Both the position numbers and the translations under genes were made by a program. From a virus: 48,973 nucleotides of DNA. Positions 1,317 to 46,752 of this stretch are shown piece after piece. The notes under the pieces are model-generated. The model did not search any database, had not been told where the DNA came from, and worked only from the letters and a program-made list of their open reading frames with translations. The DNA is taken from positions 1 to 48,973 of the IMG/VR virus record IMGVR_UViG_3300044626_001725; one strand, 5' to 3'. Every line of letters starts with the position of its first letter. The stretch's first letter is position 1.

Positions 1317-1345
1317 GATGAAAACCACCATCGATCTAGCATCGT

Positions 1346-1759
1346 CTACTTTCTTTTACCTTTACCCCTCATCGCATTAGTTGGAATTTGTTTGTCGACC
1401 TCGCGCGGCAATTGAATCACGTGAACGATGAAGTGAGATTCAATCTCCGAATCGGTCACCCTTGCGTATCCAAGTCGCATTTCGTTCACAAACCAACCCA
1501 CTTTATGATGCGACTTAAATAACCATAACTTATCGTCATCTTTTAAACCTTCTCGAAAATGCTGCCATACCGGGTTTAGAAACCCGAAGGGTTGTTTTGG
1601 CGCGTTTCCTAACGGATCGTCCACCATCTCACGGGATTCGATAGCCGATATTTGGATGCACTTGATGAGATCCGACGGTTTGACACGAAACGGAGGGTGA
1701 CTATCAGAGAATGGCTTATTGACCGGTTGAAGTGCTTCAAGTGCTTTCTGATCCAACAT
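1346..1759 (-). CDS. Hypothetical protein, 137 aa
   Basis: I do not recognise this family. The protein is soluble and charged, ends in a basic tail (GKGKRK) and has no signal peptide or membrane segment. The ATG is preceded by TAAGGTG at a good distance, which supports this start. It is the last of three leftward genes (2742 to 1346) that converge on the terminase gene, with about 30 bases between the two stops. The position beside terL suggests a phage accessory gene, but nothing in the sequence shows its function. Confidence 0.6.
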   Translation of the reverse strand: MLDQKALEALQPVNKPFSDSHPPFRVKPSDLIKCIQISAIESREMVDDPLGNAPKQPFGFLNPVWQHFREGLKDDDKLWLFKSHHKVGWFVNEMRLGYARVTDSEIESHFIVHVIQLPREVDKQIPTNAMRGKGKRK

Positions 1760-1806
1760 GGGTTCACCTTATCGGTTAGTAGCTATAGAGACGCCGTGCT
1801 TTTGCG

Positions 1807-2273
1807 TTATGGCTGCCACCAGGCAGCTACTTGAAAGGGATCGTGTGCGCCTTCGGGCGCTTCACCGTTGTGTCTGATGATTGTTTTTGTAACAACGCCG
1901 TTTTCGAAGTAAATCAAACGATCGCGCTCATACTTTGCTTCGAATTCACTGTTCTCATGTTCGATTTCTTTTCCCTCAGGAATTGTCAGCGTGCCGCAGT
2001 ACCAATGGGCAAAGACGCGATCGGGATAGCCAGGAAAAGGTCACCTAGGTTCCCAAACTCTCCGTTCTTTAGAGAGGCCCTAATCTTGATCAGATAGAGA
2101 CGCTCGTCGATGATCTGCCATGTGCCGACATAACCACGGCGATGTGCGGAGGTCCAAAAATCGTTGAGTTCGGGAAGTTGACCCCCAAGCCCGATGTAAG
2201 TCTCTAGTGGCCACTCAGATAGTCCCTGCGTATCGCCATTGATGAGGATTCGTTCTGGTGCTTGCGCAGTCAT
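1807..2273 (-). pseudogene. Frameshifted conserved hypothetical protein
   Basis: The N-terminal part (RRGYVGTWQI, then DERLYLIKIR) belongs to a common small bacterial family whose members continue with a Phe-Pro-x-Tyr-Pro-Asp-Arg-Val-Phe-type stretch. In the starting frame the protein ends early at 1986. The expected continuation is in another frame: from about position 2036 it reads GYPDRVFAHWYCGTLTIPEG and runs open to a TAA at 1807-1809. One missing base in the TTTTCCTGG stretch (about 2033-2042) explains the break. It may be a real mutation or a sequencing error next to the short homopolymer. The start ATG follows AGGAAG and lies 4 bases after the stop of the upstream gene, so the two are an operon. 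Confidence 0.72.
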
Positions 2274-2277
2274 GGGC

Positions 2278-2742
2278 TTATCTTCCTAGTTGAAAAGTCG
2301 TTGTACGCATGGCATCGGAGCGCTCTTTGGCAATTGAATGTGCACAAAGTGCACGGCCAATCACAGCTTCTGTACGCCTAATCAATGCGCAGATTTCTTT
2401 GCCGCCTTCTTTGGAAAGAATGAATCCGATCAGGCGTCTAAGCTCTGCAATGCGCGCCTCCCATTGCTCTTCCGAGAACTTTGCCGTGTTTGCTGCCAGC
2501 GTCATGCAGTGCTGGCGCAAGAGGTTCTTCGCAGCGGCGAGTTGGGGCATTGAGCGGGATGCTTCGAATGTCGGTATCTGTGAACCTTTTGATGAGGGCA
2601 CTGCATGTTTTGGATGGCTTGCGGGCTCGCACTGCATGTAACGGCGGCGATCTGCATAAGAGCCTGTTCGCGGCAGATCTGAACCGTCGTAATCTGATGT
2701 TTTATTCATAAACCGAAGCCGTTCGAAGTTCAATTTGGACAT
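2278..2742 (-). CDS. Hypothetical protein, 154 aa
   Basis: An unrecognised basic protein. The first 70 residues are probably disordered; the rest looks helical (LAAAKNLLRQHC, then EARIAELRRLIGFIL). There is no membrane segment. It is the first gene of the leftward set 2742-1346 and is followed after 4 bases by the frameshifted gene, so the two are cotranscribed. Its start faces the divergent promoter region shared with the rightward gene at 2923. The function is unknown; the link to the phage is positional only. Confidence 0.6.
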   Translation of the reverse strand: MSKLNFERLRFMNKTSDYDGSDLPRTGSYADRRRYMQCEPASHPKHAVPSSKGSQIPTFEASRSMPQLAAAKNLLRQHCMTLAANTAKFSEEQWEARIAELRRLIGFILSKEGGKEICALIRRTEAVIGRALCAHSIAKERSDAMRTTTFQLGR

Positions 2743-2860
2743 GACGAGTCCTCCAGACTTGGATTCTCAAAAGAGAAAAGTTGATCAGGAAAAGTTACCG
2801 ATTTGATACGCGCTACGGGCGAAAGCTCTTGCGGTTGCCTTGCATTTGGCTGGGTGGTGT

Positions 2861-2895
2861 TTGGTTGCCCGTATGAAATCTATTATAAGATTTCA
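2861..2895 (+). promoter_or_regulatory. Promoter with -10 inside an inverted repeat
   Basis: TTGGTT (2861-2866), then 17 bases, then TATAAG (2884-2889) form a sigma70-like promoter pointing at the gene starting at 2923. The -10 lies between perfect 7-base inverted arms TGAAATC (2874-2880) and GATTTCA (2889-2895). A protein bound to this palindrome would block RNA polymerase, so it looks like an operator. The downstream gene encodes a helix-turn-helix protein, which makes autoregulation plausible. This is inferred from sequence only. Confidence 0.55.
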
Positions 2896-2922
2896 GGACT
2901 TCTTACTTGCTAAAGTTTTGTA

Positions 2923-3861
2923 ATGGCGGCAGTCAATACTGCAAAAAGTGTGCGTAAAGCTCGATGGCAACTGGGTCAAGGCCAAAGCGAACTTCTTGCC
3001 CAATGGATGGGTGGGGCCGCTGGTCTTCGTCTTGCCAGGAGAGCCTGGTTCATTCTCTCCGAGCAAGAGGGCTTGGCCGTCCATCGATATTTTCAGGCAA
3101 CGCCTGTTCCGAGTCGAAGGATTCAGGCGCTTGTGCAGCGCTTTGATCAATTAGGACCGTTTGGACTTATTGAGCGTTCACGATCAGGTAGACCGTCGCT
3201 TTCAACAGAGCGTTGGACAGCAAGACGCACGGCAGCGGGCGAGCACTGGACCCTCGTGCGAAACCTAGCCCTCGATGGTGGACGCAAAAGGCGAAGAACC
3301 CTGTCATTAAAAATGCCAAGACATCGATCAAGCGCACCCATACTTGCCCTAGCACTTGACCATGACGTTTTGATTGTTGTTACGCAAACACAAGCAAAGC
3401 TTCGAGTCGACTTACCCATGGTCGGTCAGTGCCTAACAATGGGAGAGAACGCGCTGGGTTCGCAAGGAGACATGGGTGCAATGATGGACTGGCGAGCGTA
3501 CCTGCTAGATCTTGCTAAGCCCGAGTGCCAGCAACTTGGCGAGCGCGTTAGCGTCGAGCAACGAAAGCCTTTCGTAAGCATCCTAAAGCGCTTACTAAGC
3601 ACCACAACTGGAGTCAGGATTCATTTCATTGGTGATGCGGGATCAACTCGACTCGTTAGCTGGATGGCTGTTTTTAGCGAGTACTTTGACTCGGTCGACC
3701 AAAGGGCATTGCTGCGTGCAGCAACGTTCTCATCAGCACCGTCATCTTTAAGGCCTGGCCTTGATGAGTATTTTGACGTTGAGCTTTCTGATGCGCTTGA
3801 GGGAATGCTTCAAGGAGCAAAGAGCACTCTCTATTGGGTGAGACAAGTTGAGGTTACCTAA
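2923..3861 (+). CDS. Protein with IS630-type helix-turn-helix
   Basis: 312 residues. Around residues 62-92 the sequence RIQALVQRF, then GPFGLIERSRSGRPSL, resembles the helix-turn-helix and linker of IS630/Tc1-type transposases. These typically read FreeGlaGLldrpRsGRP. The rest of the protein shows no DDE catalytic core that I can identify, so it is not a complete transposase. It is more likely a domesticated DNA-binding protein or a hybrid. No good Shine-Dalgarno precedes the ATG. A promoter embedded in an inverted repeat lies directly upstream, suggesting that the protein may control its own transcription. It stands alone on the plus strand between two leftward groups. The HTH call is moderately sure; the function is not known. 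Confidence 0.55.
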   Translation: MAAVNTAKSVRKARWQLGQGQSELLAQWMGGAAGLRLARRAWFILSEQEGLAVHRYFQATPVPSRRIQALVQRFDQLGPFGLIERSRSGRPSLSTERWTARRTAAGEHWTLVRNLALDGGRKRRRTLSLKMPRHRSSAPILALALDHDVLIVVTQTQAKLRVDLPMVGQCLTMGENALGSQGDMGAMMDWRAYLLDLAKPECQQLGERVSVEQRKPFVSILKRLLSTTTGVRIHFIGDAGSTRLVSWMAVFSEYFDSVDQRALLRAATFSSAPSSLRPGLDEYFDVELSDALEGMLQGAKSTLYWVRQVEVT

Positions 3862-3987
3862 CCCAAAATTGAATGACTGATACTTCCTGCAACACACGAG
3901 AGCTTTTAAGACTTACTTCTAGAAATACGCACTCATTTATTTCGATTTAAGACAAAGCCGTCTCTAGTAACAGCCAGTCCAGCCCTA

Positions 3988-4230
3988 TTATTCCTTCGTC
4001 TTCAGCTCGTGGTCATGCTCGCGAATAAAGCGCTCAATGTCACCCGACATGCTAATTAGCTTTGTCCACTGCTCTTTGTAAAGCGTCACTGGGAAGCGCC
4101 CTAACCCGTATACAGACAGACCGCCCTTGTCGCTCACCTTCATAGTGACGCGACTTTTGGGCGCTTGCTTGAGCGCTTCATTTTCCTTGCGCAAGCGCTC
4201 GAGTTCGGCTCGAAGGTCTTCATCAGCCAT
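3988..4230 (-). CDS. Small coiled-coil protein, conserved C-terminal motif
   Basis: About 80 residues. The N-terminus is a short coiled coil (DEDLRAELERLRKENEALK), followed by a compact beta-rich segment, SVYGLGRFPVTLYKEQW. I know this motif from small proteins in phages and integrative elements that have no assigned function. The start at 4230 is preferred because AGGA lies about 9 bases upstream; an ATG at 4257 would add nine residues. It follows the gene at 4265-4906 and is probably cotranscribed with it. The coiled coil suggests a dimer or a partner-binding protein. Confidence 0.65.
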   Translation of the reverse strand: MADEDLRAELERLRKENEALKQAPKSRVTMKVSDKGGLSVYGLGRFPVTLYKEQWTKLISMSGDIERFIREHDHELKTKE

Positions 4231-4264
4231 GTCATTTATCCTCACCGTTGATGTCAATCACTGT

Positions 4265-4906
4265 TTATACGGCACATTTGTTTAAGATTGCTCGCTCAAC
4301 TTCATTCGCCAATACCTGGAGTTCCTTCAGAGGCTTCACTCTCAGCGCCTTTATGAACTCGGTCAAATCCAGAGACCGTTCTTCAGACATCGAAATGAAA
4401 TCTTCAGCAGACTCAGCTGCGTAGGAAACGCTTTCGCGCGCCTCTGGGTCGACAAATTCGAAGTTTATGCCCCACTGCCCAGCTGACCCGCTTAAGTACA
4501 CCTCAACCGGCCAGGCTATAACTGAACCCAATATTTCGTAATTCATTACGTGTCTGAGATCAATGCCAGTGGCGTCTACCTGTTTCGCAAAATAAAAGCG
4601 GTCGCTGTATGGGTTGTACGAACCCCCACATACAAGCCTGACTCGCTTGCCACGAAACTTCGCTAATGCCCCACGCTGCTTGAGTGGTACATCGTAAAGA
4701 CAACTCTGCCCTTTCCTCTCCAAGTGATAGTCTCGGCAATCGCCAGTGAAGAATAAGTACTCCCGACTCTTTACAAGCCTTTCAAACTCGGCATAAATCG
4801 CGTGCTTAGCATCGGTCCAAGTCGGGATAGTGTGCAATTCTCTAAGCAAAATTCCGACATCGTCATGGATGTCATCGGGAGTTTGGAGGTTATGGCTTAA
4901 GGTCAT
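4265..4906 (-). CDS. Hypothetical protein, 213 aa
   Basis: I do not recognise this family. The protein is soluble and mixed alpha/beta, with aromatic and Gly-rich stretches (VRLVCGGSYNPYSDRFYF) and an acidic helical C-terminus. The ATG at 4906 is chosen because GGAG lies 6 bases upstream; the open frame extends to a TTG at 4918. It is followed by the small coiled-coil gene at 4230, so the two form a short leftward operon. It sits between the HTH gene and the defence island and could be an accessory of either, but nothing visible links it functionally. Confidence 0.62.
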   Translation of the reverse strand: MTLSHNLQTPDDIHDDVGILLRELHTIPTWTDAKHAIYAEFERLVKSREYLFFTGDCRDYHLERKGQSCLYDVPLKQRGALAKFRGKRVRLVCGGSYNPYSDRFYFAKQVDATGIDLRHVMNYEILGSVIAWPVEVYLSGSAGQWGINFEFVDPEARESVSYAAESAEDFISMSEERSLDLTEFIKALRVKPLKELQVLANEVERAILNKCAV

Positions 4907-4918
4907 TAGTTGCTCCAA

Positions 4919-5443
4919 GCATCAAATTTCACCAAGGATCTCACTCGACTGGCTCGCCTGGTGAGCCTTTGAGGGTTCATCATCGTCGCAAAGTCTGCTG
5001 TACACCTTCACACGGGCGAAACATTTTTGATGTCAAAAGCCGAGCCGATGAACGAAATGACACGCTTTTAATGTACTTTTAGGTGACTGACGTTCTGATT
5101 TCGAATTCCTACAAATTGAATCAACAAACAGTAACGGGCCAAAGGTATGCCTACCAACACACCATAACCAAATGTTCAGGTTCGCCCTAGGGGAATAAAC
5201 CAGATGAAGCAACCCCACAATTTTCTAGCTTAGCGGGAGAAAGACAACGAGTTAAAGGGGTCGAAAGGCAAAGCCTAATGCTTAGACAGATCCAGAGAAT
5301 TTGAATGTTGAGACTTGCTAATGTTTGGGTCTGAGGGCAATGATCAAAGCAAACCAATCAACCGGAAAGTGTCAACCTTCTACCGCTCTAATGAGCTTAA
5401 ATTTCCTCATTGAAGCTTAATAATTTTTAAACGCCCGAATAAC
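4919..5443. other. Gene-free 525-bp stretch before the defence operon
   Basis: No open frame with coding character, tRNA fold or IS end was seen. It must contain the divergent control region for the leftward gene at 4906 and the rightward defence operon at 5444. Near the operon there is a short inverted repeat, AATGAG (about 5390-5395) and CTCATT (about 5406-5411), followed by an A/T-rich segment (TTAATAATTTTTAAA). This segment could hold a -10 element. These marks are weak and no promoter is called. Confidence 0.5.
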
Positions 5444-8400
5444 ATGACGCTAAAAGCATTTTGCACCCCGCGCGACTCCGTTTTCGTCGCAGATCGCCGC
5501 GCAACAGTCCTTAGCCTAGATACCTTTCTGAAAGGTAAGGTACATGGTGGCGAGTTTTTCGACGAGAACTACTTCACCAATGGCATGTCTACGCTGGTTG
5601 ACCGTGCGTTTCGGCACCTTTCGGGCTCTGGAGCAGGATCCTCCGTTTTCTTGCTCTCCCAGGCTATGGGCGGCGGCAAAACGCACAGCATGATCGGGTT
5701 GGGCCTCTTGGCAAGGGACCCCGAGCTCCGCAGACGGGTGCTCCGTGAAAATGATCCTGCGCCAAAACTCGGACGCTGTCGCGTGGTGGGATTTAATGGC
5801 CGCAGTACCGATGCGCCAGGCGGCATCTGGGGCTCCATCGCAGAACAGTTGGGCAAGGCCGATCAGTTCGCCAGGTATGTCTCGCCACTGCTAAACGCGC
5901 CTGGCCCCGAGGCCTGGAAGCAACTCCTTGGTGGTGACCCTCTGGTCTTGTTCTTGGATGAACTGCCCCCTTACCTTGAGTATGCAGTGGCCGTGCCAGT
6001 GGGTAACGCTGATCTCGGCGTAGTCACCACCACGGCACTGGCCAACCTCTTCGTAGCGGTCGCCGAGATGGATAACGTCTGTCTCGTGCTGTCCGATTTA
6101 GCCGGCACCAACTTCAGCATCGGCCAAAACAATCTACAAGCGGCCTTCGACCGTGCAGTGCAAGGCATCACCTCTGAGTCCAAACGCATTGCGGTGCCCA
6201 TCACACCGGTCAACCCAAACGGCGATGAGCTCTACCATATCCTGCGAAAGCGTTTGTTTTCGGAAGTGGCACCTCAGGCTGAAATCGACCGAGTTGCGGC
6301 AGGCTATAGGGAAGCCCTTCGTGAGGCAGGCCAAATGAATCTAACAGGTACCACACCGGAGTCGCTCTACACACGGGTGCTGGATGCCTACCCGTTTCAT
6401 CCCGATTTACGCGAACTCGTCGGCAAGTTCAAGGAAAACGACGGCTTTCAGCAAACCCGAGGCGTTATCAGACTAATGCAGATGGTCGTGGCAGATCTTT
6501 GGAAATCAGATAAGGCTGCTGTCAAAGATCTCATTGCGCCATTCGACATTGATCTAAACGTCGATGAGATCGCCTCTGAGGTACGAACTATCAACCCATC
6601 GTTAAGCGAGGCCATTGCACACGACATTGCTCATGGGGGCGACGCCGAAGTGGAGCAAATCGACGTGGCTAACGGAAACGCTGACGCATCAGAGGCTGCT
6701 CGAGTCATCCTTGTTGCGTCGCTATCAACAACACCTGGTGCCATTCACGGCCTGCGTGAGTACCAACTCGTTGATTGCCTGCAGCGCCCGGGGCGAGATC
6801 TATCCACCTTTAAAGCCAACGTGCTGGACAAGCTGGCCACTCGAGCCTGGTATCTGCACAATTCGGCTGATGGGCGGCTGTACTTTAAGAATCAGCAAAA
6901 CCTTGCCGCAAAGCTTCGTTCAACGGCGCTTTCTCTGCACACCGAAACAGTAGACCGAATGCTGCGCGAGCACCTCGAGCAACACTTTGCGCCCAGCCTT
7001 CGGGACTGCTACCAGTCCGTTAAGGTTCTGCCACCGCTCGACGAAGTGCAGATTGAGCTGGAAAAGACCACCCTCGTGGTGGTGAGGCCTGGCGGTCAAG
7101 CCAATCAACTGCCAATCTCTGGGGACTGGCAGGCCTGGTGGGCCCAGCAGCAATACAAGAATCGTGTGCTATTCCTTAGCGGCTCGCGCGACACCTTTCA
7201 GAAGGTAATTGACGCTGCTCGCCAAACGCGGGCCCTGCAGAACATCGAAGACGAGCTACGCAGCGAAAACACTCCTTCGGATGACCCTCAATGGCGGGCA
7301 CTTGACACACTTCGCGATCGGATCGCGCTGCAATTCAGCGCTGCGCTCAAGGAAGCTTTCGATCAAATCGTCTACCCATCCATCAACGCCGCTCTTCGCG
7401 CCAGTGGGGTTGACTTGGCATTTGCAGGCAACCGCAGTGGCGAGGCAACCATCCGCCAAACGCTGGAAGGCGCACAAAAGTTCACGACCAAAATCGACGA
7501 CGACGCGTTCCGCGCCCGCGCCGAGGCCAGGCTTTTTGGTTCGGCAGACACTAGGGTCGTCCTGTGGTCAGATTTTAAACGTAATGCCGCTGTAAACACT
7601 GGTTGGCCGCTCCATAAATCCTCAGCTCTAGAAGACTTAAAGGTTGATTGTGTTCGCCGAGGACTTTGGCGTGAAGAAGGCAATCACATCCGTCGAGGGC
7701 CCTTCCCACCTCCCACGCCCTCGGTGGAAGTTCGCGAACTATCGATGGAAGAAGACGGTGACGGTCGCACCTACCTGAAGATCGAGCCGCTGCACGCGCC
7801 CGCTGTGGTCTACGAAACAGGCGATACCGACCCCACGCCGTCATCGAGCCCCGTGCCTACCCCTGCGCGATTCGAAGCCACCTCGCTTCGCTACCGATTC
7901 CTAGCGCACGACCCGGCCGACATCACGCGCATCAGCCAGGTCAAAGAATGGACTGCCAAGATCAGGCTGAAGTATCAGCTACACAACCGGGGCGACCACT
8001 ACGAAGTTGAACTGCGCGCTCTGCCACGTGCCAATGGCGTCACCATTCGCTACACGACTGACGGCTCCGCCCCAACCCATGTGGGCGCTGCCACCTACGA
8101 CGGCGCCCTTCGTGTTCCTAATGGCACCCGCACCGTTTTAGCAATCGCAGTTGCTGCAGCTTTCGGACTTAACTCCGAGGTAATGCGTATTCCAATTCCT
8201 CAGCCGGGGTCCGAAGGCCCCAAGCTCGATCCGAATACGCCTGTGCTGTGGACTCAGCGGGTCAAACTCGATGACTCCGGCGCTGTTTGGGATTTCATAC
8301 GTCGCCTTGATGAGGCCGTGACAGTCATTGCCTTTGACCTGGAGTTGACCGCTGAAAGCGCTGATGGCTTACAGCATGTGGACTTTTTTGGTGCTCTTGA

Positions 8401-8584
8401 GTCGGGCTACACGGCAGCCAGCATCAAGTCTGTGGCTGACCAATTACAGGCCATCGTGGGCAGTGGCTCACTGCGAATGGCGGTGGGTTCACTCCGGTTC
8501 ACAACGGGTCAGGCTCTTCTTGATTGGTTAAAGGCCAGCGGCCAACCATTCGATATGGCCAAAGTTAAACAAGTCGCGCAGTAG
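5444..8584 (+). CDS. DUF499 ATPase, defence operon gene 1
   Basis: A 1,046-residue P-loop ATPase of the DUF499 family, the ATPase member of helicase-methylase-ATPase (Hma) type defence loci. Walker A is MGGGKTHS (residues 75-82), the GGGKTH form typical of DUF499. Walker B is LVLFLDE (about 167-173). The C-terminal third, after a Pro/Ser/Thr linker (about 800-810), contains a chitobiase/Fn3-associated-type beta domain with the hallmark TIRYTTDGSAPT (about 867-878). No Shine-Dalgarno is obvious before the ATG. The gene is 3 bases from the DUF3780 gene, so the products are made together. The exact role is unknown; ATP-driven sensing or loading of the other subunits is an inference. Confidence 0.9.
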   Translation: MTLKAFCTPRDSVFVADRRATVLSLDTFLKGKVHGGEFFDENYFTNGMSTLVDRAFRHLSGSGAGSSVFLLSQAMGGGKTHSMIGLGLLARDPELRRRVLRENDPAPKLGRCRVVGFNGRSTDAPGGIWGSIAEQLGKADQFARYVSPLLNAPGPEAWKQLLGGDPLVLFLDELPPYLEYAVAVPVGNADLGVVTTTALANLFVAVAEMDNVCLVLSDLAGTNFSIGQNNLQAAFDRAVQGITSESKRIAVPITPVNPNGDELYHILRKRLFSEVAPQAEIDRVAAGYREALREAGQMNLTGTTPESLYTRVLDAYPFHPDLRELVGKFKENDGFQQTRGVIRLMQMVVADLWKSDKAAVKDLIAPFDIDLNVDEIASEVRTINPSLSEAIAHDIAHGGDAEVEQIDVANGNADASEAARVILVASLSTTPGAIHGLREYQLVDCLQRPGRDLSTFKANVLDKLATRAWYLHNSADGRLYFKNQQNLAAKLRSTALSLHTETVDRMLREHLEQHFAPSLRDCYQSVKVLPPLDEVQIELEKTTLVVVRPGGQANQLPISGDWQAWWAQQQYKNRVLFLSGSRDTFQKVIDAARQTRALQNIEDELRSENTPSDDPQWRALDTLRDRIALQFSAALKEAFDQIVYPSINAALRASGVDLAFAGNRSGEATIRQTLEGAQKFTTKIDDDAFRARAEARLFGSADTRVVLWSDFKRNAAVNTGWPLHKSSALEDLKVDCVRRGLWREEGNHIRRGPFPPPTPSVEVRELSMEEDGDGRTYLKIEPLHAPAVVYETGDTDPTPSSSPVPTPARFEATSLRYRFLAHDPADITRISQVKEWTAKIRLKYQLHNRGDHYEVELRALPRANGVTIRYTTDGSAPTHVGAATYDGALRVPNGTRTVLAIAVAAAFGLNSEVMRIPIPQPGSEGPKLDPNTPVLWTQRVKLDDSGAVWDFIRRLDEAVTVIAFDLELTAESADGLQHVDFFGALESGYTAASIKSVADQLQAIVGSGSLRMAVGSLRFTTGQALLDWLKASGQPFDMAKVKQVAQ

Positions 8585-8587
8585 TCC

Positions 8588-9214
8588 ATGACATCTACAA
8601 ACAACACTACGAAACGCCGCGTGGTTGGCCTGGGTTTTTTGCCCGATGAGGCACGGCATGGCTTTTTGGTCGATGTTCCGAAGGGTACAAGCAATGACGA
8701 GCGTATCTGCATCACAGAGCATCGGGGAGACGATTTAGATCACCTCGGTGCGCGAGACAGCGCAGCGCCCAACCCGAAGGATCCAGGACTGCGCGTGATG
8801 ATTGACCGCGGGCGTTGGCTGGCGCTAGCGCCCGAATTCTGGGACGAATCGAACCGCCGTCTGCGCGCTAACGGCCTGCCGACTTCCAAGTTCGTCAAGA
8901 ACCCCTCCAAACCGGTGCCGGTGCATCCGTCGTTAGGGAAGGAGCTGTGCGTGTTGTGCTGGGCGGTGGAAGACGCGCCGCCCGATGACATTCCCAACGC
9001 CCTTCGCAACTGGGAAGCTCTAGCCCCCGAGGAGCGCTGGTGGCTCTTCACCATGACGGTGGCCACCACCGGCCAGGCGATGCAAAAGGGCCTGGGCTGG
9101 CGAAAGGCCTTGCGCGCCGCACTGGCCGACAACCCATTCGTCAAAGGCGAGGGCATGTCGCCCCGCGCGCGCCGTGAGCTGCTGGGTCACTCCCAACTGT
9201 CGCTGAACCTCTAG
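8588..9214 (+). CDS. DUF3780 protein, defence operon gene 2
   Basis: 208 residues with the signature of DUF3780. It carries a conserved GKELCVLCWAVEDA segment in the middle, then LAPEERWWLFTMTVATTG and GWRKALRAAL near the C-terminus. This family occurs almost only between DUF499 and DUF1156 genes, and that context is reproduced here (3 bases after DUF499, 12 before DUF1156). There are no nuclease or ATP motifs, so it is probably a structural or adaptor subunit of the complex. Composition is rich in G and C, like the following gene. Confidence 0.88.
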   Translation: MTSTNNTTKRRVVGLGFLPDEARHGFLVDVPKGTSNDERICITEHRGDDLDHLGARDSAAPNPKDPGLRVMIDRGRWLALAPEFWDESNRRLRANGLPTSKFVKNPSKPVPVHPSLGKELCVLCWAVEDAPPDDIPNALRNWEALAPEERWWLFTMTVATTGQAMQKGLGWRKALRAALADNPFVKGEGMSPRARRELLGHSQLSLNL

Positions 9215-9226
9215 AGCCCCGATTCC

Positions 9227-12049
9227 ATGCCTGCATTCATCGAAACCCAGTTCCCCATCGCCCGTCTCTCGGCAGAGTCCTACAAGGAACGCAAAGCGGG
9301 TGCCAGCCAGACACTCACCGGCCTGGGCAAGTGGTGGGGCCGCAAGCCGCTGGTGCTAGTGCGCGCATCCATCGTTGGCATGCTGATGCCAGCCTCGAAT
9401 GACCCAAAGCGGGATCGCGAGGTGTTCCTGAAGATCCTGACCATGGACGACGAGGGCGCCTGGGCGCGTTGCAAGCCGCCCGTGCAGCGAAAGCTCGGCC
9501 GCACCGGGTTCGACACACTGCCCTACGCGGAACGCATCGCCGAGTGTGAGCGGCCCGAGAACGTGCTTGGCCCAACTGAGCAGGCCTGGACCGACATCAA
9601 CGCCCACCTGGGTACCACCGCCACGAACCTGCCCGAGCTCATCGACCAGCTCGGTCAACGCGCGTTTGGTCATCGGCCGCGAGTAGGCGACAGCTTCTGC
9701 GGCGGAGGGTCCATCCCCTTCGAGGCCGCACGCATAGGATGCGACGCCTACGGCTCCGACCTCAACCCCGTGGCCGGGCTGCTCACCTGGGCCAGCCTGA
9801 ACTTATTGGGCGGCGGACCAGAGGTGCAGGCCGAAGTGGCGCGAGTACAGACGGAAGCCTTCGCCGCTGCAGACCGGCAAGTCATCGAATGGGGGATCGA
9901 GTACAACTCCCGCGGCGAGCGGGCTGAGGCATTCCTATACAGCGTTGAAGTTAAGCCCGAGGGCTGTGACTACTTCATTCCACTAGCCCCGAATTGGGTG
10001 GTGGCAGAGAAATACCGTATCGTCACCCGCTGGACGCGAGTTGGCCAGGCCGAACGCCTGACGCCTGAGGTTTTGGCAGTATCCGAGGCCGAACTCAAAC
10101 TGTACAAGGACAAAAAGGGCGCCACCATAGTGGACGGTCGGGTGGTGGACCCGCTAAACCCGAGCCGCACCTGGAGCGTGGAGGCACTGCGCGGCCCGGA
10201 AGGTCTGCGCCGCTGGAGCAGCGATGACGTGGTGCCGCGTCCAGGCGACGTATTCCAGGAACGGCTGTACTGCATTCGCTGGGTCGATGCCGAAGGCAAG
10301 CGCCGCTACGCCGCGCCAGACGCCGACGACCTGGCGCGCGAGGCGCACGTGCTGGCGCTTCTCAGGGAGCGGTTTGCAGGTTGGCAGCACGAGGGATTTA
10401 TTCCGTCATTGGCCGTTCCAGAGAGCGGCGCCGAGACCGATCGTCTGTTTCGCGAGCGAGGCTGGACGCACTGGCATCATCTGTTTACGCCGAGGCAATT
10501 GTTGGTGCATGGGACTATCGCTGAGAAACTCTCGACGCTAGGCGGGGCAGAGGTGGCGGTTAAAGCTGCATCTTTCCTAACAATTGCAATGCTTGCCAAC
10601 TGGGATTCAAAGCTTTGTATTTGGAATAAAAACATGGCGAAGAGCGGGGGAATTGGCGCATTTGAGCAGACCTTTGCTAACCAAGCATTGAACACCTTGT
10701 TTAATTTTGGATCCCGCGGCTTCTCCGGACTTGAGGGGTTCAATTTATCGAGTCTGCAAACCATTGAGGCTGGTGGGCAGGCATGCATTTGTGACGCCAG
10801 GGACATTACAAACGACTGCGACTTTTGGATAACTGACCCCCCGTACGCGGATGCTGTCAACTACCACGAGCTTGGCGACTTTTTCCTCGCCTGGTATGAC
10901 AAGCAACTCGCTTGCACCTTCCCGGAATGGACGCCAGACGCCCGCGCCGAACTGGCCGTGCGTGGCGACGGCGACGACTTCCGCCGGTCCATGGTCGACA
11001 TCTACCGCAACCTCGCCCGTCACATGCCCGACAATGGCTTGCAGATGGTGATGTTCACACACCAGAACCCGGCCGTTTGGGCCGATCTGGGCATGATCCT
11101 TTGGGCCGCGGGCCTGAAGGCCACCGCCGCCTGGACCATCAGCACTGAGACCGCAGCTGTCGGACTGAAGAAAGGAAACTACGTACAAGGAACCGTGTGC
11201 TTAGTGCTGCGCAAGCGCGTGGGCGACGAGCCCGGCTTCCTCGACGAGGTCTACCCGCTGGTGGAAGACGAGGTGAAGCGCCAGATCGCCAGCATGCAGG
11301 CGCTGGACGATGGCAGCGAGCCCAACTTCAACGATGCTGACTACCAACTCGCCGCCTACGCCGCCGCGCTGAAGGTCCTGACGCAGTACGGCAACCTCGA
11401 CGGCCGCGATGTGGAACACGAGGTGTTCGCTGTGCGGGGCAAGGGCGAAAAGAGCGAGTTCCAGGCCGTGATCGAACGTGCGCTGGGCATCGCCTGTGAG
11501 ACGCTCATACCGCGCGGGCTGGACGCGATGTGGCGTGATCTGTCGCTGGTGGAGCGCTACTACCTGCGCGCGTTGGACATTGAAAGCCGTGGCGAGCGCC
11601 GCCAAGGCATGTACGAGGAACTGGCGCGCGGCTTTGGCCTCAACGACATCAAGCCGCTGCTCAAGAGCGACAAGGCCAACGGTGCCCGCATGCACACGGC
11701 CAGCGGCTTCGCTGCGGCGACGCTGGCGGGGGCCTCGGGTGGTACTGGCGCCGCACCTGCGCGCCGTGGGCGAGCGGCAGCCAGCGGAGCGCATCCATTT
11801 GCCGAGGCACCGCTGCGCCACCTGCTGTTTGCAGTGCGCGAGACGGCCGCCGCCGACAACAGCCCCGATCTGGGCCGTCAATACCTGCGCGACACCTTCG
11901 GACAGGGCTACTGGCAGCTTCGCGAGCGCTTCGTGGGACTGCTGGAGTGGCTGGCTGCACTTGGCAACGCCACCGACATGGGCGAGTGGGCGACCGACAG
12001 CGAAGCCGCACGCATCCTCGCAGGCCGCCTACGTAACGATCACGCCTGA
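9227..12049 (+). CDS. DUF1156 adenine-type DNA methyltransferase
   Basis: A 940-residue methyltransferase. The DUF1156 N-terminus shows GLGKWWGRKPL (residues 32-42). A SAM-binding segment follows at about 154-185 (SFCGGGSIPFEA, then GSDLNPVAG). The catalytic DPPY is at about 536-539 and indicates amino methylation of adenine (N6) or cytosine (N4). The long spacer between SAM site and DPPY gives a permuted or split arrangement usual for this family. In Hma-type loci this enzyme is thought to mark host DNA while the helicase and ATPase act on unmarked DNA. The gene is very rich in G+C (about 68-73% in sampled lines) except for a patch at about 10,540-10,870 (38-52%), which suggests recombination inside the gene. 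Confidence 0.9.
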   Translation: MPAFIETQFPIARLSAESYKERKAGASQTLTGLGKWWGRKPLVLVRASIVGMLMPASNDPKRDREVFLKILTMDDEGAWARCKPPVQRKLGRTGFDTLPYAERIAECERPENVLGPTEQAWTDINAHLGTTATNLPELIDQLGQRAFGHRPRVGDSFCGGGSIPFEAARIGCDAYGSDLNPVAGLLTWASLNLLGGGPEVQAEVARVQTEAFAAADRQVIEWGIEYNSRGERAEAFLYSVEVKPEGCDYFIPLAPNWVVAEKYRIVTRWTRVGQAERLTPEVLAVSEAELKLYKDKKGATIVDGRVVDPLNPSRTWSVEALRGPEGLRRWSSDDVVPRPGDVFQERLYCIRWVDAEGKRRYAAPDADDLAREAHVLALLRERFAGWQHEGFIPSLAVPESGAETDRLFRERGWTHWHHLFTPRQLLVHGTIAEKLSTLGGAEVAVKAASFLTIAMLANWDSKLCIWNKNMAKSGGIGAFEQTFANQALNTLFNFGSRGFSGLEGFNLSSLQTIEAGGQACICDARDITNDCDFWITDPPYADAVNYHELGDFFLAWYDKQLACTFPEWTPDARAELAVRGDGDDFRRSMVDIYRNLARHMPDNGLQMVMFTHQNPAVWADLGMILWAAGLKATAAWTISTETAAVGLKKGNYVQGTVCLVLRKRVGDEPGFLDEVYPLVEDEVKRQIASMQALDDGSEPNFNDADYQLAAYAAALKVLTQYGNLDGRDVEHEVFAVRGKGEKSEFQAVIERALGIACETLIPRGLDAMWRDLSLVERYYLRALDIESRGERRQGMYEELARGFGLNDIKPLLKSDKANGARMHTASGFAAATLAGASGGTGAAPARRGRAAASGAHPFAEAPLRHLLFAVRETAAADNSPDLGRQYLRDTFGQGYWQLRERFVGLLEWLAALGNATDMGEWATDSEAARILAGRLRNDHA

Positions 12050-12073
12050 CTTTCTTTAAATATGGGAGCAACC

Positions 12074-12442
12074 ATGGCAAAAAAGAAACAATTAATCCAA
12101 CGCGTAGAGGTGTCAGAGACCGGTTCGGGGCTCTTTTGTCCGTTTTGCGGCGCACGGGCATTACCCCCAAGTGAAGAGTGGGGTGCGGCGGAGTTTGAAC
12201 CCTGTAGGCATGTACTGTTTATCGCACACGATATGCAATTTGAATATCGGTCTAATCGATTTGACGCACTCATGAACATTGAAGGCGTAGAGGAAGATGA
12301 TTTGGAGTTGCCCGATCAGAGTGGAATCGATGGCTTTACTGATCTCACGCCGCTTGCTGGCGCCGTGAAGTTTGCTAGCTATCAAGGTGCACCTTCCTTC
12401 TACGGTACCTATGCCGGGTTTGCGCAGACCGAGGGCGACTGA
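12074..12442 (+). CDS. Small Cys-rich protein within the defence operon
   Basis: 122 residues, unrecognised. Near the N-terminus a knuckle CPFCG is followed 20-odd residues later by CRH, enough for one zinc site. The rest is acidic (EGVEEDDLELPD) with a Gly/Tyr-rich end. The ATG at 12074 is chosen because GGGAG lies 5 bases upstream; the ATG at 12062 is inside the ribosome-binding region. It lies between the methyltransferase and the helicase in the same direction, so it is cotranscribed with them. It is lower in G+C than the methyltransferase, so it may be a later addition. Possible roles are an adaptor, an inhibitor that limits self-damage, or a passenger. Confidence 0.68.
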   Translation: MAKKKQLIQRVEVSETGSGLFCPFCGARALPPSEEWGAAEFEPCRHVLFIAHDMQFEYRSNRFDALMNIEGVEEDDLELPDQSGIDGFTDLTPLAGAVKFASYQGAPSFYGTYAGFAQTEGD

Positions 12443-12470
12443 ACCTGTTGAGTAATAACTCGCTCACCAA

Positions 12471-15263
12471 TTGATTAATAGACACTCCAGCCGACGCATC
12501 CGTCTCGACCAGTCGGTGCTGAGCCAGCGACTGGCCGGAGCGGTGTCCTACGACCGCATCGCGGGTTATTTCCGCAGCAGCCTTTTTGAGGTGGCGGGTG
12601 AAGCGCTCACACAAGTGCAGGGGCCGATCCGCATCTTGTGCAATTCCGACCTCGATCCCCAGGACGTCGTTACCGCTGCAGCTGCGCAGGCTGCACTACG
12701 TCGCAGTTGGTGCGCCGGCCAACCTGAAGCGGCACCACCTTTAGCAGTTCCACGATATAGAGCACTTTTCGAGGCCTTAACTTCGGGTCGCGTAACGGTG
12801 CGCGTTTTACCTGACACTGCATTTGGCTTGATTCACGGCAAAGCCGGCGTAGTGCGCCGAGCGGACGGCACTGCGACGGCGTTTCTGGGTAGCGTGAATG
12901 AGAGCGCCTCAGCCTGGAAGCTGAATTACGAGTTGCTTTGGGAAGATGATTCGCCAGACACGGTTGCCTGGGTCCAAGAAGAATTCGACGCGCTCTGGAA
13001 CGATCCGCGCGCGATGGACTTGAGCGTCTGCCCGTTCATTGTGCAAGATGTGCAACGAATCATTAACCGTCGGGTGGTAGAGCCCGCTGACTGGAAGTCG
13101 ACCGAGGATCCAACCACTGCTGCCGCAGCCGCAGCGGTTGAAACACCGGTCTATCGCCGTGAGCAAGGGTTGTGGCCACATCAGAAATACTTTGCTCGAT
13201 TAGCACTGGAACGCCATCGTCTAGGTGGTGCTCGACTTGTCTTGGCCGATCAAGTCGGTCTGGGTAAGACTATTCAACTAGCGATGGCAGCGCTGCTCAT
13301 GGCACTCGATGATCCCGAGGGCGGCCCTATTCTTGTGCTTGCTCCAAAGCCATTACTGCAGCAATGGCAAGGTGAGCTAATGGAGTTGCTGCAGCTCCCG
13401 TCAGCGCGATGGAACGGCCGAGCATGGGTTGATGAGAACGATCTTGAGTACCCCTCTGATGGGGTGAAATCGCTCAGCAAATGCCCCCGCCGGATAGGTC
13501 TTGTCTCGCAAGGTTTGGTGGTTCGTGGACTAACGGAAACGCTTCAGCAACTATTAAGTCGCAGATATACCTGCGTAATTGTTGACGAGGCGCACCGAGC
13601 AAGGAGGAGGAAGGTTCCAAAAGTAGACGCAAGCGCTGACGAAGTGGATGAGCGTGCCGTTCCAAATAAGCTTATGGCTTTCTTGAGGCAGATTGGCGAG
13701 AAAACCAAAAGCATGCTGCTTGCCACCGCGACTCCGGTGCAGCTGCACCCCGTGGAGGCTTGGGATTTGCTAGAAATTCTGGCCCAAGGCAATGACGGTG
13801 TGCTTGGTGGTTGGACACGAACAAGTCCATGGTTTCAAGCAAGTCACTGTTTAGCCATTGCGAGTGGAAAGATCGCTGTTCCAACGGATCAGCACGCTGG
13901 TTGGCAATACGTGCGAGACCCTCTTCCCTCCAGACACGAAGGAGCACCCTTTGACCGGATCCGTCGTAACCTGAATGCAAGCGACAGTTCGTGGCAGTTC
14001 ACGCCAGAGACATTAGAACGCGTCTCGCCCGCAATCCGTCGTGTTCAGCTACAAAACAACTTGTTGCCTGGCTATGGCGAGCAATTCAACCCAATGCTGC
14101 GCTGTATTGTCCGACGTACTAGAGGTTACTTAGAGTCGACGATCAATCCCGCGACTGGTGGTTACTACCTGCCGAAAGTCACTGTCCGATTATTTGGCGA
14201 GGACGAGCATGGCGCGCTTACCTTGGGCGGATACTTACGCGAGGCCTACCAGGAGGCTGAGGAGTTTTGTCGTTTGCTGCAACTCCGGGTGAAAGGGGCC
14301 GGTTTTTTTAAGACTCTGCTACTGCGGCGACTTGGCAGTTCAATGGAGGCTGGCCGTAAAACGGTGCTAAAGCTGCTTGGAAACGCACCTGATGAGTTAA
14401 GTGACGAGGATGACGACGACATCGAAGATGATGATGTAGCGCAAGTTGGGCGCAACATCAACGCCGACTCAGATTTCAAGAACTTCACGCCCGCCGAAGT
14501 GGCATCGCTTAACCGCTGCCTTGAACTGCTGAGGCAGGGTGGGAATAACGACCCAAAGCTGGAGGCAGTGCTCGCCTACCTTCTGGGTCAGCGAGGCGAC
14601 GTTGAACAACGCTGGATGGATTTGGGTTGTATCCTTTTTTCCCAGTACTACGACACGGTTCGGTGGATCGGAGATGCACTTGCGACGCATCCAGAGTGTT
14701 CCAATCTTGAGATCGGTCTATATGCCGGAAGCAATCGCTCTGGCATCTGGAGCGGTGGCGTTTTCCGTAGATGTGATCGCGACAATCTCAAGGCACGTGT
14801 AAGAGCTGGAGAGCTCAAGCTACTGCTCGGAACGGATGCGGCCTCCGAGGGGCTTAACCTTCAGCGGCTTGGTACTTTGATCAACATTGATCTACCCTGG
14901 AACCCTACCCGATTAGAGCAGCGCAAGGGCCGTATTCAACGGATCGGCCAAGTACGCAGTGAAGTCTGGATCGCTAACTTGCGCTACCTAGGATCAGTCG
15001 AAGACCGGGTACATCAGGTGCTTGCAGATCGACTAGAGTCTATCCACGAACTTTTTGGACAAATCCCCGACACGCTTGAAGACGTCTGGGTAAAGATTGC
15101 GCTGCAAAACGAACAAGAAGCCTTGCAACTTATCGACCGAACCACAGCGACCCAGAACCCATTTGATGCAAAGTACAGTGTGGTGGAAGATGCCGACTGG
15201 GAGACATGCGCTTTGGTGGTAGACCCAATTGCAGTTAAAGAGCAACTTTCACGCGGGTGGTAA
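12471..15263 (+). CDS. PLD-like/SNF2 helicase, defence operon gene 5
   Basis: A 930-residue fusion. The N-terminus is phospholipase D-like, with a variant HKD region HGKAGVV (about 122-128) followed by FLGSVNESASAW (about 138-149). An SNF2-type superfamily 2 helicase follows: Walker A DQVGLGKT (about 261-268), DEAH (about 372-375), LLGTDAASEGLNL (about 785-797) and the arginine finger region RLEQRKGRIQRIGQ (about 814-827). An acidic insert (DEDDDDIEDDD) lies near residue 645. It probably moves on and damages unmodified DNA. The start is a TTG, the first start after an in-frame stop at 12456, with no clear ribosome site. Translation may be coupled or weak. It closes the Hma-type operon. Confidence 0.88.
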   Translation: MINRHSSRRIRLDQSVLSQRLAGAVSYDRIAGYFRSSLFEVAGEALTQVQGPIRILCNSDLDPQDVVTAAAAQAALRRSWCAGQPEAAPPLAVPRYRALFEALTSGRVTVRVLPDTAFGLIHGKAGVVRRADGTATAFLGSVNESASAWKLNYELLWEDDSPDTVAWVQEEFDALWNDPRAMDLSVCPFIVQDVQRIINRRVVEPADWKSTEDPTTAAAAAAVETPVYRREQGLWPHQKYFARLALERHRLGGARLVLADQVGLGKTIQLAMAALLMALDDPEGGPILVLAPKPLLQQWQGELMELLQLPSARWNGRAWVDENDLEYPSDGVKSLSKCPRRIGLVSQGLVVRGLTETLQQLLSRRYTCVIVDEAHRARRRKVPKVDASADEVDERAVPNKLMAFLRQIGEKTKSMLLATATPVQLHPVEAWDLLEILAQGNDGVLGGWTRTSPWFQASHCLAIASGKIAVPTDQHAGWQYVRDPLPSRHEGAPFDRIRRNLNASDSSWQFTPETLERVSPAIRRVQLQNNLLPGYGEQFNPMLRCIVRRTRGYLESTINPATGGYYLPKVTVRLFGEDEHGALTLGGYLREAYQEAEEFCRLLQLRVKGAGFFKTLLLRRLGSSMEAGRKTVLKLLGNAPDELSDEDDDDIEDDDVAQVGRNINADSDFKNFTPAEVASLNRCLELLRQGGNNDPKLEAVLAYLLGQRGDVEQRWMDLGCILFSQYYDTVRWIGDALATHPECSNLEIGLYAGSNRSGIWSGGVFRRCDRDNLKARVRAGELKLLLGTDAASEGLNLQRLGTLINIDLPWNPTRLEQRKGRIQRIGQVRSEVWIANLRYLGSVEDRVHQVLADRLESIHELFGQIPDTLEDVWVKIALQNEQEALQLIDRTTATQNPFDAKYSVVEDADWETCALVVDPIAVKEQLSRGW

Positions 15264-15424: not shown

Positions 15425-15949
15425 CTACGCGAACTCAAGCCATCGATGCGCACAAACCTCGCACCGATAACGAATAAAAAACTCCGACTCGGCTGCTTGA
15501 AATAGATCCGTATGATTTGAAGGCTGATAAAGACCAACGGCTCTACCCTTCCTCGCTGCGCAATTGCTACAAACCCTATCAGGGATCTTTTTCTCCCCTG
15601 CCGTCAGGTTGATTGTTGGAACATGGACCTTGATTGAATCCCAAGTCGCAGGAACTTTCAGGTTACCAATCGCCAGTCGTTTACCATCAAACTGAATTTC
15701 CACAACATCGGTCTCAGGAGGAACCTTCTTGAATGCTGCAATTACATTCAATGGAGCGACAACCTCACCCTCCCAATTCGATTCGAGATAAAAGCAACTT
15801 TGCTCACGCTTATCAGTTGCAAACAATGCGTTTTCATTCCATGCCCAAAGGCGAAAGTGTGAGCCCATCACCTTTGTGTTGAAGCGCGCAAATACAAGGT
15901 GCTTAACAGCCTTCATAAACTCAGCTTTTGTGACGAGCAGACGGTACAA
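15425..15949 (-). CDS. Small protein with C-terminal zinc ribbon
   Basis: 174 residues. The C-terminus has CSNC and CEVC pairs about 35 residues apart, a zinc ribbon. The N-terminal 110 residues alternate short strands and helices (MKAVKHLVFAR, APLNVIAAFKKVPPE, VVEIQFDGKRLAIG), resembling one half of a DNA sliding-clamp domain. This resemblance is only by eye. The start is probably a TTG, 20 bases downstream of the polyvalent gene stop and behind GTGAGG; an internal ATG at 15916 is the alternative. It is the last gene of the leftward phage operon before the defence island. A DNA-binding or clamp-like role is a guess. Confidence 0.65.
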   Translation of the reverse strand: MYRLLVTKAEFMKAVKHLVFARFNTKVMGSHFRLWAWNENALFATDKREQSCFYLESNWEGEVVAPLNVIAAFKKVPPETDVVEIQFDGKRLAIGNLKVPATWDSIKVHVPTINLTAGEKKIPDRVCSNCAARKGRAVGLYQPSNHTDLFQAAESEFFIRYRCEVCAHRWLEFA

Positions 15950-15969: not shown

Positions 15970-18900
15970 CTAGGTTATGGAATTAATTACCAACGACAAT
16001 GGTACACGTTTAAGGTAATTTTGAACTCTCACCCCCCGATTCACCTCCCGCATCACGCCCTCAATCTGCTGATCGATGCGCTTCACGCGTTCCTGCCAGC
16101 CGGGATCGGCGCGCAATTGCTCTTCCCTCCTCAGTCTCCGTAGTTTGCTCACTGCAGCTTCAGCCTGATTGCCAAGTCCGATGTGATCAACAAGCGGTTC
16201 TTGTTGTCTAAAGCTTTTAGCGTCTTCACCAGCTTTCATGCGTCCTTTGTATTCGTTCTCGATCTGATTCAAGCGCTTGATGTTCTTGTAAAAGAGCTCG
16301 GACTCAGCCGCTACGCCCTGTGTGCTGCCATAGAGCCGCCCGAGTAACGGTATCTTGTGCGCCGGTAACTCATCGCCTGTGAAGGGTGCCGAGATCGTTT
16401 GAGCTAACTTTCCAATCTCGCGCCCTACCCCGCCTGTGAGTTGACCGATCACATAATCGATTTGATCAGGCGTTGGACTCCATGCACCGGGCTGATAAGC
16501 CGTACCGCCTGAGATTCGGTTGAGTGCTTGGGCGATTATTTTGGACCAAGGCGTGGCTGAGTCTTTCACAAGAGCGGTGCCTGGCTGTGGGTTAAGCGGG
16601 TTATGGTTCTCACGGTATATCGGCCGACCCGTCCAGTCCTGGTTTTGAGCGAGAGCGACTGCTGGATCAGCAACGGTCGGCGTGACAAGTTGCGAGAAGC
16701 TTTGGGTGCCACCAAGCGGATTAAAAGCATCAAGCAATACTTGGAGCAGGTTGCCCAATTGCTTTGCCGGTGTGTTGTCTTTGCCACCAGCCATCATTTC
16801 AACCGAGAGCCTTCCGATATTGGGTAAGAAGTGAAAGCCTAAGGGCAAGGGAAGCGATAAGTACTCGGTTGTAGAGATTGGAATGATGAGATTCTTTTCT
16901 TTGACAAATTCTGGAATCTTCTCCCAGGCATCATCACCATCATCACCATCATCACCACCGCCCATAATCGCCATGGCAAGCAAGGTGTTCACAGCACCCA
17001 GCATCACCCCACCCAACATGATCTTGCGACCAAGCGGGCCTTTGAGTGTTTGCGCCATACGCGCTGTGCCTTGGATTGAGGCGTTAAAGAAGGCATACAG
17101 CGCACCGATCTCGCGCGATTGCCTGCCCTTGCGATTAAAGTTAACCGTCAGGTTCTTAGCAAGGCTTGCAGCACGCTCTTGGCTTAGTCCCGAGTTCAAT
17201 GCCACATCAAAAGCTGAAAGACGCACGGCGTTTTCCATGGCTTCGTTATAGTCTGAGAGCCAATCAAGTACTGCATGAGCAGCTTTGCTTGCCGCCCCTC
17301 GATCAAGCGCTGCGAGTTCACGAGCGAGAGCATCGGCGCGTTCTTTGGCATCGGCAAAAAGATCGCGATAGCCTGTGGTGCCACCTGCCGCTTGCAGTTG
17401 CTGCCAACGATTAGCCCAGTTAGTAGCGCTCTGATCTTGCGACGCGACTGAGACACCACCACGCTCGGTGCGATAAATCGCTTTGAGTGCAGGCCAAACG
17501 TTTGCTGCGACTTCTTTTTCCTTACCTGCAATCGCTGTCGTGCTGAGATTTAAGAGACCCGATTGCAGATCACGTGCAAAGTTAATAATTCCAAAGATCG
17601 GGTTGTATTGGGTGTTAATGGATGCAAACCAACGTGTGCCTTTTGCGATGAGGCTAATGGCTGCATGTAAATCACCCACATCTAAGTTTTTAATTGACTG
17701 GGCAACTCTTAAAGCTTCAGGGTTTCGCTCATTAAACGTGATCGCTGCATCTTTGCCGCCAATGCGCAGCATCACCACATAGGGCAAGTTTCTATAGTTT
17801 GGATCTACTATCGTACGAGCAGTGTTCGTCATCGGATCAAGCACACGCGCAGTCGGCGGCTTATCCACGGTCCAAAGTGAGCTATCTGGGTTTTGTGCAG
17901 CCATTAAGTAGAGCTTTTTAGTCACCCGGTCTTTTTCACCGCGGGTGAGTGCCGTTTCGCGCTGCTGCGCGATATGACCCAAGATGTTGGTGACTTGCTC
18001 TTTACTACCCACACGTTGTCTTGCCGCAGCACCGTTCACACTAAAGCCAAGTCCTACAGGGTGTGCGGTGCTTGTGGGGTGTGCCTCATCGCGATGTAAT
18101 GGCACGTAGTAGTCATAGGCTTGGCGCCAGGCTACAAGCGTTTCAGCATCCATGAGGCCATAGGCATCTAAAAGCGTCAGTGTCTTCTCATTGATGGCAT
18201 CAACACGTGCTGCAGCTGCCTCAAAGCTTGGTAGGTTCGAATTGTCAATGCCAGCAATGACTTGCGCCGCTTCAGTATCTGACATCCCAGAAAGCGCTAA
18301 GCGCTCATCTTCGGTACCTTTAAAGGCTTGTGCCAGCGACCAGCGTTGTTGGCGCTCATAGGCAAGCGTTAATGACTCTTCTATCGCTTGGGTGGTCGCC
18401 CCTGAGCTTTTAGCTGCTTGCAAGGCACGCTCAAGCGAAGCAACGTTGGCTGCGGCTTCTTTTCGATAAGCATCAAGCTCGGCTTCTGAAGGATTGCGCT
18501 TAGCCATGGCAGCATTAGCTTCGGGTGCATGCCGAGCGTGTAAGTAGCGCTCAAAGTCTTTCAAAGCAATACCTGCGTCATGCAAGCTTTGAAGCAATGG
18601 TTTTAGCTCATGGCTTAAAAACTGCTGCGTTCTGAAAGCGACCCGCTTGTGAAAGAGCTCTTCGCCCAAGTAGGCATCATTAAGATCAGTGATCACACCA
18701 CCCAACGCATGAATTCGATCTCGGATGCGTTTTAGATCGATGTACTTGTCTTGAAACTCATAAAGCAGTGCATCAATCACTTGGGGGCTTATCAGATTGG
18801 AAAGGCGCGTCTTAAGCGCTTGCCAGCGATTGGGCGAATTGGGTGTTGGTGGGTTTGGTCTTGGTGACTTTAGGCCTGGTGTGTTCGGTTGATTCGGCTC

Positions 18901-41537: not shown

Positions 41538-41619
41538 GCTCACTCCCCATGTAAGGCGGCTCATTAAGGCTTCACGAGAGCACATGCGCTTCGTGAACTA
41601 ATTGCTATGGGAAGAAGCC

Positions 41620-46721: not shown

Positions 46722-46752
46722 GGTGATGTCTTTTGTTGTGGTGATGTCTTTT
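46722..46752. repeat. Duplicated 13-bp sequence before the holin gene
   Basis: GGTGATGTCTTTT occurs twice with an 18-base period, at 46722-46734 and 46740-46752. The second copy reaches into the portal stop codon and the first touches the holin start. It doubles the holin leader and may affect its translation. Confidence 0.6.

Follow-up and report, generated by a model that had tools for sequence, protein, structure and literature searches.

An intact Type-2 BREX-related operon on a viral record, probably the cargo of a temperate podovirus

Defence systems centred on DUF499 ATPases have been split into three BREX-related (BR) types, of which Type-1 BR is Hma (Rakesh & Krishnan, NAR 2026, PMC12839542). 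Type-2 BR, named as such only in 2026 from the comparative genomics of cellular genomes, is marked by a standalone DUF3780 gene (98% of the published loci), by an N-terminal HKD motif on the helicase and often by FnIII-like domains in DUF499; these domains, which lie before the C-terminal RRM of that protein, are optional and occur in 53% of taxa (PMC12839542). A single four-cysteine zinc finger in the target-recognition domain (TRD) is usual in BR methyltransferases (MTases) and is not given as defining (PMC12839542). Models for the set already exist in PADLOC (DUF499, DUF3780, DUF1156_MTase and PLD_Helicase) and in NCBIfam (NF042961–NF042964). In a limited literature search, we found no experimental test of any Type-2 BR system.

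The window analysed here spans the full length of a metagenomic IMG/VR virus record (48,973 bases; linear by its classification). An operon of five intact, closely spaced ORFs occupies positions 5444–15263, all on the + strand. A preliminary description had spoken of five rightward genes lying 3–28 bases apart, and the ORF coordinates agree: the intergenic gaps are 3, 12, 12 and 28 nt. Scans for terminators and promoters in the window yielded nothing beyond chance. The features of the operon, together with those of the divergent gene upstream of it, are as follows.

4265–4918, − strand: gene upstream of the operon and divergent from it; best relative among 399 Burkholderiales genomes beside a Polynucleobacter kasalickyi operon
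5444–8584, + strand: DUF499 AAA+ ATPase (BR ATPase), 1046 aa
8030–8182, + strand: Fn3-like beta-sandwich segment in the C-terminal part of DUF499 (residues 863–913; CHB_HEX_C_1 / Fn3_assoc)
8588–9214, + strand: standalone DUF3780 gene, 208 aa
9227–12049, + strand: DUF1156 adenine-N6 methyltransferase, 940 aa
9797–10801, + strand: target-recognition region of the MTase (residues 191–525), hypervariable between otherwise near-identical operons
10505–10774, + strand: TRD segment of foreign base composition (residues 427–516; GC3 of 0.51 vs. 0.75 for the whole gene)
12062–12442, + strand: small protein gene, 126 aa
12471–15263, + strand: PLD(HKD)-SNF2 helicase, predicted nuclease effector, 930 aa, TTG start
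12834–12899, + strand: HKD motif (HGK...GSVN; helicase residues 122–143), with HGK...GSVNE conserved

All four large proteins were assigned by the Pfam and PADLOC searches that the preliminary description had proposed. PADLOC E-values ranged from 1e-36 to 1e-246, with scores of 599 bits for DUF499, 123 for DUF3780, 818 for DUF1156_MTase and 774 for PLD_Helicase. Pfam placed DUF499 in PF04465 (E 3e-23, above the cut-off), DUF3780 in PF12635 (147 bits, E 7e-43, cut-off 27) and residues 8–70 of the MTase in PF06634 (DUF1156; E 1.5e-21); in the helicase it recognized PLDc_2 (residues 53–176), SNF2 and Helicase_C. Against NCBIfam, the MTase (NF042963, 1199 bits) passed its cut-off of 1000 and the helicase (NF042964, 1177 bits) its cut-off of 1100; DUF499 (NF042962, 742 bits) fell under a strict cut-off of 1200, as did DUF3780 under its own strict cut-off. 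The catalytic motifs of the large proteins are all present, and they are invariant or nearly so across 68–82 homologues. DUF499 has a Walker A-like QAMGGGKTH and a Walker B LFLDEL, with LDELPPYL conserved. The MTase has the alpha order, with motif I (FCGGGS, residue 153) before the TRD and DPPY (residue 537) after it, and the helicase carries GLGKT, DEAH, TATP and RKGRIQRIGQ. Family assignments and motifs together thus support the earlier view of a complete defence-type operon with its catalytic motifs intact.

To which type does the operon belong? It had been described as Hma, and in favour of that reading the three large proteins share ancestry with those of Hma and do give weaker matches to the Hma models. 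In PADLOC, however, HmaC scored 166 bits against 599 for DUF499, HmaB 74 against 818 for the MTase, and HmaA 99 against 774 for the PLD-helicase model; moreover, DUF3780 and the N-terminal HKD motif are Type-2 features. With both model scores and architecture against it, the Hma assignment has next to no chance of being right and was discarded. Because the standalone DUF3780, the N-terminal HKD motif and the Fn3-like domain in DUF499 are all present, we assign the operon to Type-2 BR, the sister of Hma. Helicases of Type-2 BR lack a TUDOR domain at the N-terminus; in the present helicase, PLD is the first recognised domain, and a Pfam search of the sequence gave no TUDOR match. Neither Foldseek nor VIA-align matched the AlphaFold model of DUF3780 (mean pLDDT of 85) confidently to a PDB structure, in agreement with the published statement; we therefore take its role as a reader solely from the published proposal.

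How might such a set of proteins work? We infer a methylation motif, a division of labour, restriction activity and expression from a prophage, as well as protection of the host and self-methylation of the phage DNA. The internal TRD of the DUF1156 MTase would read a short motif, and the enzyme would methylate adenines within it and thereby mark the DNA of both host and prophage. On unmarked incoming DNA, the DUF499 ATPase and DUF3780, a probable modification reader or adaptor, would assemble, and the HKD-SNF2 helicase would then translocate along that DNA and cut it. The lysogen would in this way exclude other phages, the phage’s own packaged DNA would bear the mark, and exchange of the TRD would re-set the specificity. 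The operon could also be imagined to serve the infecting phage rather than the lysogen; the MTase would then shield phage DNA against restriction by the host, and the remaining genes would be passengers. Orphan MTases are often carried by temperate phages, and an MTase by itself would give anti-restriction. Nevertheless, the helicase, nuclease and ATPase motifs are all intact, and the whole core set is kept both in the window and in a T7-like lineage described below, unlike decaying passengers; a benefit to the infecting phage is accordingly a highly improbable explanation. An orphan MTase or a decayed operon was likewise discarded as a description of the locus, all motifs being intact.

Evidence on specificity came from 16 operon pairs, not all of them independent, whose DUF499 proteins are at least 88% identical. 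In these pairs, mean identity was 92% for DUF499, 94% for DUF3780 and 93% for the helicase; within the MTase it was 89% over residues 1–60 and 90% over residues 641–940 vs. 57% over the TRD (residues 191–525). In one pair (L003 and L199), the partner proteins are 96, 99 and 98% identical and the TRDs 55%. Since the other three proteins are nearly unchanged when the TRD changes, specificity appears to be re-set by TRD exchange. These sequence comparisons suggest that the TRD is probably swapped between operons and that the MTase is probably the sole specificity determinant, as with PglX of BREX; the alternative to exchange is that this domain has diverged rapidly in situ. In the window, the GC3 dip in MTase codons 427–516 was reached in 0 of 2000 permutations. 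The best match to TRD residues 401–525 is from Synechococcus lacustris (68%), the bulk of the others being at 31–52%; for the rest of the MTase, the nearest copies are different ones, most of them proteobacterial. Residue 239 (window 9941–9943) is a serine where a cysteine is 96% conserved in homologues, and the zinc finger of this TRD may therefore have been lost. The domain keeps C247 and C349, and the first cysteine of the CPxC pair has been replaced as well, on a four-cysteine assignment that is not structure-based.

Additional genes are common at particular points of such operons. Among 72 complete in-order loci, gaps of at least 200 nt were counted between MTase and helicase in 33, between DUF3780 and MTase in 19 and between DUF499 and DUF3780 in 2. 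Judged by eye, the contents include PIN/VapC-like, Schlafen/AlbA-like, OLD-like ATPase, BRO, DUF1016 and Fic-like genes, and the auxiliary effectors of PMC12839542 match them. The 126-aa gene at 12062–12442 occupies the commoner slot, that between MTase and helicase. It had been called a small Cys-rich protein; small it is, but it contains just three cysteines, and it has a CPFC...C segment. It had no match in PADLOC, Pfam or NCBIfam, no significant match to PDB sequences and no homologue among the accessory-slot ORFs of the other loci. Its single good homologue (40%) is a solitary hypothetical gene on an Azoarcus plasmid, set in a metabolic context, and its single-sequence AlphaFold model (pLDDT 39) was uninformative. 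As for the divergent gene at 4265–4918, its best homologue among 399 Burkholderiales genomes (33–36% over the N-terminal half) is found in P. kasalickyi, in the same position beside a Type-2 BR operon. The best relative is thus co-located with the system, while DUF3780 is found in just 7 of the 399 genomes; for this reason, the gene probably travels with Type-2 BR.

The remainder of the window bears on the carrier, whose features are listed here.

18–1316, + strand: terL, terminase large subunit (Terminase_3 E 2e-23)
1317–4264: accessory DNA after the terL stop codon, with ORFs at 1346–1759 (−), 2278–2742 (−) and 2923–3861 (+)
15425–15949, − strand: small gene in the same direction as the giant gene and 20 nt downstream of it; convergent to the operon
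15970–23526, − strand: giant phage protein (2518 aa) that closes the late module, with relatives in L109, L110 and G017
40419–41585, − strand: major capsid protein (phrog_334)
46751–48961, − strand: portal protein (phrog_156)

The packaging gene said to adjoin the operon is the terL, whose DNA is 94–95% identical to the terL of three phage contigs (L029–L031). The portal, major capsid and internal virion proteins are encoded on the − strand at 30–49 kb; they and the giant protein have matches in contigs among L014–L028, L109 and L110, with nucleotide identity of up to 99.9% over 7.7 kb in L021. In GenBank, relatives of the portal include those of Pseudomonas phages Skulduggery and Itty13 and Serratia phage Parlo (41–46%), with genomes of 61–63 kb. 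The gene set supports the short-tailed phage that had been proposed. Because relatives carry tyrosine integrases (L030/G014 and L018/G013) and a Burkholderiales genome, G299, of the same order as Polynucleobacter, holds an integrated prophage with a capsid protein 85% identical to that of the window, the lineage appears to be temperate, with Burkholderiales as its usual hosts, which agrees with the suggested prophage lifestyle. No integrase was found in the window, the record ending before the integrase arm. A late arm of 33.5 kb, a cargo of 14.1 kb and an early arm of ~15 kb, as in L030, imply a genome of ~62.7 kb; the cargo would fit, since this is the size of the GenBank relatives.

Several other features of these phages were observed. 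A tryptophan halogenase-like gene (phrog_2928; window 32374–33846) lies inside the late structural module. There are two moron-like insertions: one at 43692–45335 (GC of 0.44), with no family match and absent in L014 and L016, and another at 26925–27497, which looks MORN-like by eye and runs against the direction of the genes around it. Upstream of the portal, L018 (record 3300023184_000244) has just a 79-aa C-terminal terL remnant at 4757–4996; the parts of that record examined contained no full terL elsewhere. One IS66 element lies beside the Polynucleobacter operon (L169, 3–1475), and another directly after the giant gene in L110 (17650–20350).

Relatives of the MTase were found on 157 plasmids and in none of 50,697 GenBank phages; two scans of 2.9 million viral contigs returned 18 loci. 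On three viral contigs (G002, G003 and G018), the operon is accompanied by terminase/portal-type genes and the gene of a major capsid protein of T7-like type (phrog_212), and in G002 it follows the capsid gene. On a 195-kb contig of Aphanothece saxicola, the operon (37.1–46.6 kb) lies between a portal (28.6–30.2 kb) and capsid-side genes (56.2–58.1 kb). The stretch at 22.5–58.1 kb of this contig (G025:C7; L205–L207) is a T7-like prophage in a cyanobacterium, with the operon amid its structural genes. Over the stretches compared, viral record G019 is identical to the Aphanothece contig and adds no independent evidence. These T7-like carriers, cyanobacterial viruses, belong to a lineage unrelated to the window’s phage. 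Because they also hold the operon, phage carriage of Type-2 BR is recurrent, whatever the junctions of the window prove.

Is this particular copy phage cargo? Phage genes lie on both sides of it, terL to the left and the giant gene through to the portal on the right. However, the window’s terL is inverted with respect to the portal arm and points to the end of the giant gene; in every relative showing both genes, terL is upstream of the portal and co-oriented. This leaves two options: an inverted late arm in this phage, or a misassembly at one of the junctions. From this orientation, at least one junction of the record may be false, the contig being rearranged or chimeric, or the operon being host DNA beside a prophage. 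If the error is at 15.3–15.9 kb, the operon still belongs to the terL–portal cargo site; with the error at 1.3–5.4 kb instead, it could be either host DNA or cargo at the end of a prophage. No independent contig was found across either junction, including that at 15.4 kb. Neither ORF 2923–3861 nor the gene at 4265–4918 had relatives in viral contigs, the ORFs within 1317–4264 had no family matches, 1317–5443 had no plasmid match and 15425–15949 had no phage match. No long direct or inverted repeats flank the operon, and no att site could be placed.

The orientation of terL would be explained if the operon were an ordinary host defence island beside the end of an integrated prophage, with the left terL coming from a second prophage or a chimeric join. 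In the G299 prophage, the order is terS–terL–portal–capsid...giant, all co-oriented, and the giant gene closes the late module; DNA beside the giant gene could therefore be host. The 5.4–15.3 kb region is GC-richer than the phage genes, the gene at 4265–4918 and the operon recur together in Polynucleobacter, and the operon’s absence from GenBank phages points the same way. Yet the island would have to be flanked on both sides by phage genes, and the ORFs that flank the operon have a phage-like GC3. Furthermore, the site just past the terL stop codon is variable, with accessory DNA in several relatives, and cargo is therefore expected there. L029 carries IS3, a ClpP/SDH-like (protease-like) gene and Hsp20 (identities by eye) after its terL stop codon (3077–6560), which marks the terL 3′ end as an accessory-gene site. 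In L030, the terL–portal interval (11300–14390) holds minus-strand GNAT and glyoxalase-like genes, integron-cassette-like by eye, in an insert whose flanking repeat is a perfect copy of 11 nt from the terL 3′ end, TGGCGGTTTGA; this repeat occurs a single time in the window. In the T7-like lineage, too, the same operon is found amid the structural genes. We thus regard a host island as rather unlikely, and carriage of this operon copy by the phage as probable. The reading that we favour, with a probability of about 0.62, is that an intact, RM-like Type-2 BR defence, together with the divergent gene at 4265–4918, is the cargo of a temperate podovirus of Burkholderiales-type hosts with a Skulduggery-related portal. 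Besides the orientation of terL and the lack of contigs across the junctions, the DUF499 and DUF3780 scores under strict NCBIfam cut-offs and the partial loss of zinc-finger cysteines in the TRD count against this reading.

The system type itself has already been described; what is new here is the phage carrier, the second phage lineage and the pattern of TRD divergence. Phage carriage is a route for the spread of Type-2 BR, and temperate phages may spread this immunity between bacteria. A broader proposal is tentative: two or more unrelated lineages of short-tailed phages could be vehicles for Type-2 BR, with a swappable TRD cassette alone setting the specificity of both marking and restriction and allowing retargeting between hosts, even across phyla. 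Type-2 BR has no demonstrated specificity determinant, and the natural TRD-swap pairs (L003/L199, L112/L123 and Aphanothece/Synechococcus) bear on whether, as in BREX, specificity comes from the MTase alone. Backup effectors are best sought in the accessory slots that adjoin the MTase.

With the published Type-2 BR systems, the operon shares the four core proteins, the N-terminal HKD motif of the helicase, the Fn3-like domain of DUF499 and an alpha-order MTase with an internal TRD. It differs from them in lying on a phage record, in the extra 126-aa gene between MTase and helicase and in the partial loss of the TRD zinc-finger cysteines; the main text of PMC12839542 does not mention prophages. 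Hma (Payne et al. 2021, PMC8565338) has homologous ATPase, MTase and helicase, but comprises three genes and no DUF3780. BREX type 3 (BrxC/PglXI/BrxHII) and DISARM (DrmD) show remote homology in MTase and helicase (PglXI 33 bits, BrxH 106 bits, DrmD 129 bits); unlike in those systems, no PglZ, BrxA/BrxB or DrmA/B/C partners were recognised in the operon. In prophage-carried defence such as BstA (PMC8585504; reviewed in PMC8791490), the prophage shields its lysogen, as is proposed here. Unlike other prophage defence, the present locus is a multi-gene, RM-like operon of roughly 10 kb, about one-sixth of the estimated phage genome.
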